DNA from: an uncultured Erythrobacter sp.
GTDB taxonomy: Bacteria; Pseudomonadota; Alphaproteobacteria; Sphingomonadales; Sphingomonadaceae
Length of the DNA: 64,000 nt
NCBI GenBank assembly: GCA_947494705.1
Contig: CANLVN010000001.1
Coordinates: forward strand, 310,001 to 374,000
Direction: 5' to 3'
Below are positions 52,770-59,436 of the stretch, piece by piece. The notes under the pieces were generated by a model that was given only the letters and a program-made list of their open reading frames with translations, was not told where the DNA came from and ran no database searches. The position numbers and the translations under genes are program-made. How positions within the stretch are numbered: the stretch's first letter is position 1; each line of letters starts with the position of its first letter.

Positions 52770-53246
52770 TTAGGCCGCCTTGTCTTCGGTCAGCTGCGGC
52801 GTGTCGTCATTGACATGTTCGCGGCTTCCGATGGCGATCTTGCGTGGCTTAAGCGATTCAGGGACGATCCGCTGGAGCGAAATCGTCAACATGCCGTGCT
52901 CGTAATCCGCATCGCGCACTTCGACATAGTCGGCCAGCTGGAACCGGCGCTCGAACGCACGGGCAGCGATACCGCGGTGAACGAATTCGACACCGTCTTC
53001 GTCCTTCTCGGTCTTCTGACCGGAGATGACGAGCTGGTTCTGCTGTGCAGTGATGTCGATTTCGTCCGGACGGAAGCCGGCCACCGCCAGGGTGATCCGG
53101 TAGCTGTCTTCGCCGGTGCGGACGATGTCGAAGGGTGGGTAGCCATCCTGCGTGTCTGCACGGAAGCTGTTCTCGAGCGCATCGAACAGCCGATCGAAGC
53201 CGACCGTCGAGCGGCGATAGGGGGTCAAATCAAATGCAGTTCTCAT
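52770..53246 (-). CDS. Hsp20/IbpA-like small heat-shock protein
   Basis: MRTAFDLTPYRRSTVGFDRLFDALENS...YPPFDIVRTGEDSYRITLAVAGFRPDEIDITAQQNQLVISGQK. Confidence 0.92.
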   Translation of the reverse strand: MRTAFDLTPYRRSTVGFDRLFDALENSFRADTQDGYPPFDIVRTGEDSYRITLAVAGFRPDEIDITAQQNQLVISGQKTEKDEDGVEFVHRGIAARAFERRFQLADYVEVRDADYEHGMLTISLQRIVPESLKPRKIAIGSREHVNDDTPQLTEDKAA

Positions 53247-53349
53247 TTCCAAATCCTCCTTGTTGAGCAATCTGGGCATGAGAGGCGCCGGGATCCAAGA
53301 GCCGACGCCCTCTGTCCAACCGGACCCGTAATGGCATCCGGTACTGACA

Positions 53350-53378
53350 AAATTAGGAAACGCGCAATTGGTTTCAAG
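53350..53378 (-). promoter_or_regulatory. Putative RpoH-type promoter upstream of the Hsp20 pair
   Basis: Reverse strand CTTGAAA...CCTAATTT, 17 nt between CTTG and CCTAATTT; compatible with alphaproteobacterial sigma-32 promoters. Confidence 0.5.
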
Positions 53379-53429
53379 ACCCGATAGAAATTTTTTATCG
53401 TCTTGTTTTCAGTGGTTTGCAAGGGAAAA

Positions 53430-53457
53430 CCAGGCACACCGATTGAGGTGCGCCTGG
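53430..53457 (-). terminator. Rho-independent terminator
   Basis: Reverse strand CCAGGCGCACC-tcaatc-GGTGTGCCTGG followed by TTTT. Confidence 0.65.
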
Positions 53458-53495
53458 CCTTCTTCCAGGAGAGAATATGATTAAATGGAGTGCGT

Positions 53496-53687
53496 TTACG
53501 CGGTCAGCCGATCGCTGCTTGCGTGATCGGAAGTCCAGCTTTGCATCTGGTCCTTGAGCGCCAGTTTGAGCTTCTTCAGCCGGGCAATCAGAATTTCGTC
53601 AGGCCGGGGTCGTTTGCTTTCCAGCCGGATTTCGTCCTCCAGCCGCGCATGTTCGCGTGCAAGATAGTCCAGAAACCTGTCGGTCAT
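53496..53687 (-). CDS. YdcH/DUF465-like small protein
   Basis: MTDRFLDYLAREHARLEDEIRLESKRPRPDEILIARLKKLKLALKDQM. Confidence 0.7.
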   Translation of the reverse strand: MTDRFLDYLAREHARLEDEIRLESKRPRPDEILIARLKKLKLALKDQMQSWTSDHASSDRLTA

Positions 53688-53807
53688 TATCTCCTCCTCT
53701 CTCATTCGACCGATTTTGCGATGTTGCCGCGTTTGAAGCCTGCCTCGCCCAGAACGGCGTGTGCAGGCGCCCGGGCAGCACTGCCGCCAGCGGCGTGTTT
53801 GAGGATG

Positions 53808-53836
53808 GGAGAGCGCGGGGTCACACCGCGCTCTCC
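53808..53836 (-). terminator. Hairpin immediately downstream of groEL
   Basis: GGAGAGCGCGG-GGTCACA-CCGCGCTCTCC, perfect 11-bp stem just after the groEL stop. Confidence 0.65.
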
Positions 53837-53844
53837 TGACCGGA

Positions 53845-55479
<1,635 letters not shown>

Positions 55480-55521
55480 CTATGCTTCTTTCGGTTGAAC
55501 AGAAGTTTCAACGTATTGTGC

Positions 55522-55836
55522 TTACGCCGCCTTCTTGAGCTCGGCGGTGGTTTCGATGATGCCGAGGATGTCGCTCTCCTTCATGATGAGCAGGTCCTCG
55601 CCGTCGATCCGCACTTCGGTTCCGGACCACTTGCCGAACAGGATGCGGTCGCCCGCCTTGACGGCGAGTTCCACCAGCTTCCCGGCATCGTCACGCGCAC
55701 CCGGGCCGACAGCGACGACTTCGCCTTCCATCGGTTTTTCCTTGGCGGTGTCAGGGATGATAATGCCGCCGGCCGTCTTTTCTTCGGCCTCGATACGGCG
55801 AACCAGCACGCGATCGTGCAAAGGTCGGAAATGCAT
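55522..55836 (-). CDS. groES: 10-kDa co-chaperonin GroES
   Basis: [92 protein letters not shown]. Confidence 0.97.
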
Positions 55837-56600: not shown

Positions 56601-57082
56601 TCCTGGCGGGCGATTGCGCCTGCAGGCTCGGATTCATGCTTATGGAAATCGAATGCTACATAGAAATCTGGTAACCTTCGCCCACTTGATTGGCAGCTTT
56701 CCCATTTTCTCGCACTGAATTCTGCCAGTCGGTGTACGATCAAATCATTCATTGAGGCGGCAAGCTCGGAATTTATGCGGGCCTAGCTGCGGGCCCCGGC
56801 ACCGGATGGGAACAGCTTTCTGATTAGGCTGCAATAAATTGAGCGATCAGCGACGTAGCTTTTTCGGACTTAAAATTGATTCTGCGGCATCAAATGACGC
56901 GGTCGACTTTTGTCTGCTTTGCGCCCTAATTTTGGTCAAGAGATGATCATCGAACGAGCTTTCGAAAGCGGGCGTCGCGACAGGTAATTGTCGATCGATA
57001 ACGATTGAAAGAACCAGCCTTACTTCAGAACCCCCGCTTATCTCCTGCCATCAGGTTACCCGCGCACTGTCGCGGGTAGGTC

Positions 57083-57154
57083 ATTTTCCACGGAGGAAAG
57101 TTTTGACTTGCCTCAAAGGAAAGTCGCATTTAGTCATTTTCCTTCGAAGAAAGT
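57083..57154. promoter_or_regulatory. Three tandem operator-like inverted repeats, consensus ACTTTCC-N5-GGAAAGT
   Basis: ATTTTCC-ACGGA-GGAAAGT (57083-57101); ACTTGCC-TCAAA-GGAAAGT (57106-57124); ATTTTCC-TTCGA-AGAAAGT (57136-57154). Confidence 0.75.
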
Positions 57155-57166
57155 GAGGGTTTGGCA

Positions 57167-58066
57167 ATGGTGTTGGTAGACAGTTTGGTCCTTCTGATCG
57201 TGCTGTGCGGCCTCGCGTGGATGTCTTGGCGCGATTCGCGCGACTACGCAGCTTTCAAGAAGTTTGATTCCAGCGCGGACCGGGTGCGCTTTTACCGCCG
57301 GTGGACTTTCGTTCCGATGGCGCTTTTCGGTGTCGGTGGATTAGCCGTGCTGCTGACCTTCGGGAGACTGGACTTACTATACTCTCTGCCCGTTGAATTC
57401 GCGCCATTGATCGCTCCCTTCGAGGCAGTTTCGGAACCCGAAGGTTCCAGCTTTGAAACGGTGCTTGGAATGGCCAGTGGCTTGCTTTTAGGCCTTACCA
57501 TCACGGCAGTGGTCTGGCGTCGGCGGTTGAAGAAGATGTCACAACCGGTGGTCGGCGACATTGAAGCTCTTTTGCCGCGCAACGGAAAGGAGGTGGCATG
57601 CTGCTTCCCTCTGGCTCTGAACGCCGGCATCAGCGAGGAGATCTTCTATCGCGCCGCCCTTCCGCTGTTGGTGCTGGAAGCTACCGGATCAGTATGGGCG
57701 TCGCTGACGATCTCGATCGCGGCATTCGGATTGGCGCACTGGTATCAGGGTTGGAAGGGCGTTCTCGCGACCAGTGCGATGGGTGCGCTCTTCTTCTGGC
57801 TCTATCTCTCGAGCGGATCCGTCATCAAGCCGATTGCGATGCACGTGCTCATCGATATGATCGGCCTGGTGATCAGGCCTTTTGCTTCCCAGTATCTGGC
57901 TAGGCGACGTGCAAGTGCCGAGGCGAGTGAGGGGGCCTTGCCAGCCATGCCGGCAGGAGCAGCTATGGTTGTCGAGAAGGAGGCAAGCACATGGACAATT
58001 CTGAGGACCCACGGGACGCACTGGCAGCTCTCGAGTCCACGAATGATCGTCTCGCGAGACGAATGA
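57167..58066 (+). CDS. CPBP-family intramembrane glutamic protease
   Basis: NAGISEEIFYRAALPLLVLEATGSVWASLTISIAAFGLAHWYQGWKGVLATSAMGALFFWLYLSSGSVIKPIAMHVLIDMIGL. Confidence 0.88.
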   Translation: MVLVDSLVLLIVLCGLAWMSWRDSRDYAAFKKFDSSADRVRFYRRWTFVPMALFGVGGLAVLLTFGRLDLLYSLPVEFAPLIAPFEAVSEPEGSSFETVLGMASGLLLGLTITAVVWRRRLKKMSQPVVGDIEALLPRNGKEVACCFPLALNAGISEEIFYRAALPLLVLEATGSVWASLTISIAAFGLAHWYQGWKGVLATSAMGALFFWLYLSSGSVIKPIAMHVLIDMIGLVIRPFASQYLARRRASAEASEGALPAMPAGAAMVVEKEASTWTILRTHGTHWQLSSPRMIVSRDE

Positions 58067-58440
58067 GGTGGCCGATCTGGAGGCATTTTGCCGGTGGATT
58101 GCTCATGACGCTGGTGGTCGCGGCAGTAGCTCTCCCTCATGATGTCGCAGCCGTGGTCTTCGTGACGGCAATGGTTCTGATGTTGTTGATTGTCCGGGAC
58201 GATAAGAAGCGTCACGGAATATTCGTGAGCGGATATCAACGAGGCCGGACCGTGTGGATCGTAGCCGCGATCATCGTTCTGACCCTATCCGCGCTGGTCA
58301 TCGTCCTCACCCAGTTCGAGGACCCGACCGACGATCCATGGTTCTGGGTGACGTTGTCAATCGTCGCTCTTGGGACATCGGTACTCAGCTGGATTTGGGA
58401 ACGGGTGTATCGCGGAGATGTGCTTGAAGGAAGGTTATGA
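57991..58440 (+). CDS. Multi-pass membrane protein of unknown function
   Basis: Several TM segments (FAGGLLMTLVVAAVALPHDVAAVVFVTAMVLMLLIV..); SD AAGGAGG 7 nt before ATG 57991; overlaps the CPBP gene. Confidence 0.7.
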   Translation: MDNSEDPRDALAALESTNDRLARRMRWPIWRHFAGGLLMTLVVAAVALPHDVAAVVFVTAMVLMLLIVRDDKKRHGIFVSGYQRGRTVWIVAAIIVLTLSALVIVLTQFEDPTDDPWFWVTLSIVALGTSVLSWIWERVYRGDVLEGRL

Positions 58441-58754
58441 GCGTGGGTCTCGACGAGATGTTCAACGCTTCCGCGCGCCTGCAGATCGCAGCAATTCTTC
58501 TCCGCGCCGACGAAGCCGAATTCTCGGTCATCCGAGACATCATCGAGGTGAGCGACTCGGCTCTTTCGAAACATCTCTCGACACTGTCAGAAGCGGGCTA
58601 TGTATCGATCAAAAAAGCGCCCCGGAACGGCCGCCAGCGAACGTGGGCAGCGCTCACGTTGAAGGGCCGACGGGCCTTTCAGCAGCACGTAAAGGCGCTC
58701 CAGGAAATGATTACGGTAGCGGACGAGAAAATCGGTGAGACTGCTTCGGACTAG
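58437..58754 (+). CDS. Winged-helix DNA-binding regulator (HTH_34/MarR-like)
   Basis: LDEMFNASARLQIAAILLRADEAEFSVIRDIIEVSDSALSKHLSTLSEAGYVSIKKAPRNGRQRTWAALTLKGRRAFQQHVKAL. Confidence 0.88.
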   Translation: MSVGLDEMFNASARLQIAAILLRADEAEFSVIRDIIEVSDSALSKHLSTLSEAGYVSIKKAPRNGRQRTWAALTLKGRRAFQQHVKALQEMITVADEKIGETASD

Positions 58755-58830: not shown

Positions 58831-59436
58831 ATGGCCGAAGGGCGAACCTCTGCCCGTCTGGCGAAACGGATGAGAGCGATGGGCGAAGAGCGATCGCAAG
58901 AGATAGAGAGCGAACAAGCCAAAATGCATACAGCCAGCACAGCCCACAGATGGCGAGAGATGGTTGCAGGCGATCTCCCGCGCGTCCTTGCCATCGCGGA
59001 CAAGTGCCATCCCGATCACCCTGAAGACGAGGCGGTGTTTCGAGAGCGGCTCGAACTTTTCGCAGGAGGATGCTGTGTTCTCGAGCAAGACGGGGAGACC
59101 GTTGGATACATCATTTGTCACCCCGCTACTTTCGGCCACCCGGTGCCACTGGACACACTGCTAGGCGCACTGCCTGACAATGCGGATGTGCTCTACATTC
59201 ATGATATCTCGGTAGACTTGGGTATGCGCGGTAAAGGGCTCGCAAGTGAGGCGGTTGATCACGCGAAGCGGCTTGCCCGCAAGCACGATTATGACCGGGT
59301 TGCACTGGTGGCGGTCAATCGCTCTCAGGATTTTTGGGCAAAGCATGAGTTTATGATCATAGCCGACGAGGACATCGGCAAAGCGCTGGTCGGATATGGT
59401 GGAGCCAGTAGCTATATGGTCTGCGATCTCACCTAG
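58831..59436 (+). CDS. GNAT-family N-acetyltransferase
   Basis: REMVAGDLPRVLAIADKCHPDHPEDEAVFRERLEL...VLYIHDISVDLGMRGKGLASEAVDHAKRLARKHDYDRVALVAVNRSQDFWAKHEF. Confidence 0.85.
   Translation: MAEGRTSARLAKRMRAMGEERSQEIESEQAKMHTASTAHRWREMVAGDLPRVLAIADKCHPDHPEDEAVFRERLELFAGGCCVLEQDGETVGYIICHPATFGHPVPLDTLLGALPDNADVLYIHDISVDLGMRGKGLASEAVDHAKRLARKHDYDRVALVAVNRSQDFWAKHEFMIIADEDIGKALVGYGGASSYMVCDLT

Follow-up and report, generated by a model that had tools for sequence, protein, structure and literature searches.

A conserved three-site palindromic array as the probable operator of an autorepressing HTH_34 operon with a membrane-protein gene

The stretch of DNA analysed here (the window, 64,000 nucleotides from an uncultured Erythrobacter sp.) carries a plus-strand operon preceded by an array of three inverted repeats. 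As a sequence-only reading had described, the operon encodes a CPBP protease, a small membrane protein and a winged-helix protein. The first gene (57167–58066) specifies a CPBP (Rce1-like) intramembrane protease (PF02517, E=3.3e-16), the second (57991–58440) a membrane protein of 149 aa whose counterparts adjoin nearly all close regulators, and the third (58437–58754) an HTH_34 winged-helix regulator of 105 aa (PF13601, E=1.6e-25) with the recognition helix SDSALSK, which is the proposed ligand of the three sites. CPBP genes of relatives end at an ATGA overlap. In the window, between 57991 and 58066, the CPBP gene lacks the TGA that would overlap the next start, ATGA being replaced by ATGG; with TGG in place of this stop codon, the CPBP tail is 24 codons longer and extends into the membrane-protein gene.

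The membrane protein matched no Pfam family above the cut-off, and its structural model, of low confidence (pLDDT 58), displays helices along with the hydrophobic stretches of the sequence. In proteobacterial operons it constantly accompanies the regulator, most of the relatives' operons consisting of the membrane-protein and regulator genes only. The CPBP gene is an addition found in some relatives, either in front of this pair or divergent from it with the sites in between. The divergent arrangement occurs in L085, L087 and L107, where the sites occupy the shared gap and a single array could control both directions. PADLOC gave no match for the membrane protein or the CPBP protein and a weak match of the regulator to HTH-containing models, and an anti-phage system was rejected on these results.

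The regulator matches PF13601 over its full length (89.5 bits against a cut-off of 27; residues 14–92 aligned on positions 2–80 of the 80 in the profile), which makes it a member of this family. Its AlphaFold2 model (pLDDT 88.7), composed of three helices, two wing strands and a further helix at residues 75–103, has the winged-helix fold with a C-terminal helix. The closest solved structure is that of PH1061 from Pyrococcus horikoshii (PDB 1ub9; profile E 7e-8, fold TM 0.82–0.85, rmsd 1.2 Å), which shares the PF13601 profile and the fold with the window regulator, whereas the recognition helix of the subfamily to which the latter belongs is distinct. No operator description was found for PH1061 in the literature searched, and no such operator is described in the literature searched for the motif, for PF13601/HTH_34, for CPBP plus winged helix or for PH1061. 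According to the relatives search, this is the only regulator of HTH_34 type in the source genome.

The array consists of three plus-strand sites centred at 57092, 57115 and 57145, each with a 5-bp spacer and separated by steps of 23 and 30 bp, exactly as first reported. The distal site 1 (ATTTTCCACGGAGGAAAGT, 57083–57101) reads ATTTTCC-ACGGA-GGAAAGT, site 2 (ACTTGCCTCAAAGGAAAGT, 57106–57124) reads ACTTGCC-TCAAA-GGAAAGT and site 3 (ATTTTCCTTCGAAGAAAGT, 57136–57154), which ends directly 5′ of the ribosome-binding site, reads ATTTTCC-TTCGA-AGAAAGT. The claim that these are three literal copies of ACTTTCC-N5-GGAAAGT was incorrect: in a scan allowing up to three mismatches they differ from it at 1, 1 and 2 positions, respectively, and since no copy in the window is exact, the motif is to be read as a consensus and not as the literal sequence. 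A first-order Markov model of the window predicts 0.125 sites per 64 kb when up to two mismatches are tolerated, and no pair of such sites within 60 bp arose in any of 400 windows simulated under this model. In an alignment of 44 homologous arrays, the TTTCC/GGAAA core is nearly invariant. Adjoining site 1 on its upstream side, a terminator-like hairpin at 57056–57079 could insulate the operon against upstream transcription.

The array probably overlies the promoter of the operon. A predicted −35 hexamer, TTGCCT (57108–57113, plus strand), lies inside site 2, and a weak −10 hexamer, TAGTCA (57131–57136, plus strand), is proposed 17 bp past it, with a transcription start predicted near 57143, inside site 3. 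The −10 is weak, and this promoter was not reported by a strict consensus scan. The −35 element reads TTGCC in most arrays and TTGAC in L109, L113 and L086–L088. At base 5 of the left arm of site 2, G is present in 39 of the 44 aligned arrays, while its partner in the opposite arm is A in all 44, an asymmetry for which a −35 element within the site is the best explanation. In the same alignment, the TA of the predicted −10 keeps almost the same distance to site 2 even though site 3 shifts by 1–2 bp, and site 1, centred near −51 relative to the predicted start, holds the same register in all 44 arrays.

Based on this layout, in which the sites overlap the −35, the −10 and the start point, we infer that the array would mediate repression. 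Alternatively, the same regulator might serve mainly for activation, or for activation and repression together, site 1 near −51 then aiding RNA polymerase at a weak promoter. The weakness of the −10 and the conservation of site 1 on the 5′ side of the −35 are in keeping with activation, but sites 2 and 3, positioned on the −35, the spacer and the start point, are where classical repressors bind, and small HTH_34 proteins probably lack an obvious activation surface; we therefore regard this alternative as unlikely.

For an autoregulatory operator array, the sequence-only reading had named absence of the motif before orthologous operons as a refuting result. The motif was found there. Of 401 genomes searched within the order, 94 yielded relatives of the regulator, with further ones in named genomes, and the regulators of orthologous operons with a triple array are mostly ~50–70% identical. 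Among close relatives, the step between sites 1 and 2 is always 23 bp (20–26 bp being allowed), and that between sites 2 and 3 is 28–31 bp in the first set of operons compared and 25–33 bp across the 44 aligned arrays. We scanned these 401 genomes for a strict pattern that requires the first two sites at the 23-bp spacing. It was present in 34 of them, once per genome and in all 34 cases within ~2 kb upstream of a regulator match. It thus occurred in 34 of the 94 genomes with any regulator match versus none of the 307 without one (Fisher 1.7e-24) and in 32 of the 39 genomes with a close regulator (Fisher 3.9e-38), both P values overstating independence owing to kinship among the genomes. A reversed control pattern gave no match in the 401 genomes, and a 22-bp register, used as a spacing control, gave four, none of them at regulator operons. 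Six of the seven close regulators without the strict pattern have sites with another spacing or one degraded site; for the seventh, in G087, no site was found. Conservation before orthologous operons and linkage to the regulator are as expected of an autoregulatory operator array.

A search of the whole source genome for the 19-bp motif, as the first reading had advised, showed no enrichment of single motifs, which were no commoner than in the reversed control (77 versus 85), so that a genome-wide regulon was discarded. Two other genomic sites have one mismatch, one of them inside a long open reading frame (L004). The single HTH_34 regulator of this genome and the lack of single-motif enrichment together fit a dedicated local operator.

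Extending the search with the regulator profile to the class and the phylum separated the matches into two score groups. New matches above 100 bits, from other orders and another class, had sites in 8 of 8 cases, and distant paralogues at 66–83 bits in 0 of 33. We also examined 17 plasmid-borne relatives, nearly all actinobacterial. An LSK-type recognition helix was present in 12 of them, 11 of which had one or more sites of no more than two mismatches near the start of the operon, while the twelfth (L155) had a three-mismatch site; none of the five GNL-type relatives had any. Arrays in Actinomycetota comprise one or two sites, and Streptomyces virginiae carries two perfect copies of the motif 28 bp apart. 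In alignment numbering, the recognition helix has S38 and K42 in 43 of 43 site-positive proteins and G38 and N39 in 43 of 43 site-negative ones, the former typically being of SDSxLSK type and the latter of GNL type, with the same split in Actinomycetota. As the site-positive proteins are also closer relatives, this correlation is one of co-segregation between helix type and sites, short of proof of contact. Taken over bacteria, these distributions strongly support an autoregulatory operator for the winged-helix protein: the array occurs only with this regulator subfamily, in several orders of Pseudomonadota and in Actinomycetota.

The same data bear on whether a different cellular protein, such as an XRE-type repressor, might own the sites. 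A similar TTTCC-N5-GGAAA core occurs in phage immunity-like regions: the pattern was found on six viral contigs in which no HTH_34 gene was detected, and divergent Cro/CI-like HTH genes flank it in the three viral contigs that were read. However, none of the 307 bacterial genomes without the regulator has the array, the presence of which tracks the regulator's recognition helix in two phyla, and the operon contains no XRE gene, which makes ownership by such a protein very improbable. In viral contigs L166–L169 and L171, where no HTH_34 gene was found, the first two core sites are also 23 bp apart and often followed by a third; these viral arrays represent a convergent operator layout. Finally, the repeats might function through RNA hairpins or DNA cruciforms and not as protein sites, as inverted repeats around a 5-nt loop could suggest. 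This can hardly hold, since the arm changes in site 2 are uncompensated, as expected for protein-bound DNA, and the first two sites, located 5′ of the predicted start, would not be part of the transcript.

We therefore return to the array as the operator of an autorepressing operon, with three repressor dimers on its own promoter, and assign this reading a probability of roughly 83%. The proposal that the array is an autoregulatory operator for the winged-helix protein of the last gene had come from the sequence-only reading, and it gains support from the exclusive linkage to one regulator subfamily, from the predicted position at the operon's own promoter and from the helix correlation. The sites are almost certainly bound by the repressor encoded in the same operon, judging from the comparative data. 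Most likely, the 58437–58754 protein would bind each palindrome as a dimer, at site 1 just upstream of the −35, at site 2 on the −35 and spacer, and at site 3 on the start point. With all three sites filled, RNA polymerase would be excluded and the operon kept weakly expressed. That sites 1 and 2 always lie 23 bp apart suggests that neighbouring dimers on them touch or are phased, and cooperativity between them is plausible; across sites 2 and 3 it would need flexibility, since that step varies between 25 and 33 bp. The operon would presumably be inducible, release of the repressor on some signal turning on synthesis of the membrane protein and the regulator and, in this operon, also of the CPBP protease.

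Multi-site operators of this kind have a familiar counterpart in the right operator of phage lambda, where three palindromes across a promoter are bound by a dimeric repressor. The window array resembles it in its three palindromes over a promoter, but differs in having a single promoter and one regulator downstream in the same operon, with no divergent Cro gene. Regarding the signal, the nearest working analogy is the SdpR–SdpI pair, which likewise combines an autorepressor and a polytopic membrane protein in one operon. In Bacillus subtilis, binding of the toxin leads SdpI to sequester the autorepressor SdpR at the membrane (PMC1626106). By analogy, the co-encoded membrane protein of the window could plausibly capture the repressor in the same manner. 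Only the principle is borrowed: the window regulator belongs to HTH_34 and scores 18.4 bits against the SdpR family NF033789, far below its cut-off of 100, Pfam and NCBIfam scans at E up to 0.01 assigned the membrane protein to no SdpI family, and no toxin gene was recognised here.

The array and the three genes share ~94–97% DNA identity with copies in Qipengyuania, Croceicoccus, Novosphingopyxis and G213 and with one in Parvularcula, which lies on a 3-kb contig where contamination is possible. This shared block of ~1.9 kb begins between 56859 and 57030 and ends sharply, near 58857 in most copies. The regulator was found in none of the 36 congeners included in the first relatives search. The array together with its three genes looks like a recently transferred unit. 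In L047, the array end of the block is lost and foreign sequence takes its place; in L044, an IS91-like transposase and a tyrosine recombinase lie downstream of it. On the minus strand of the window, a hsp20-groEL-groES cluster is located at 52770–55836, and its groES-groEL part has ~84% identical copies on Sphingobium plasmids, a similarity separate from the array block. A stress island joining the operon to the neighbouring groEL and hsp20 genes found no support, as the ~95% block shared with other genera spans just 56.9–58.86 kb.

These elements may be combined, more speculatively and with a likelihood that we place well below even, into an undescribed, widespread and horizontally moving signalling unit. 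In such a unit, the membrane protein would sense an envelope-active agent and tether its own HTH_34 repressor, the −35 would be blocked by a dimer pair at the fixed 23-bp step and the start by a third site of sliding position, and a single helix code would be common to Pseudomonadota and Actinomycetota.

Autorepressed operons whose operators comprise several sites are a well-known kind of device; the regulator, its site and the rule that crosses phyla appear to be new. Within the widespread HTH_34 family, one subfamily gains a predicted target, ACTTTCC-N5-GGAAAGT, and a three-site promoter layout, and the type of recognition helix, typically SDSxLSK, predicts the users of the site in two phyla. 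The natural variation of sites and regulators offers material for the study of DNA recognition, and an anonymous pair annotated as a transcriptional regulator plus a hypothetical membrane protein becomes a testable autoregulated module.
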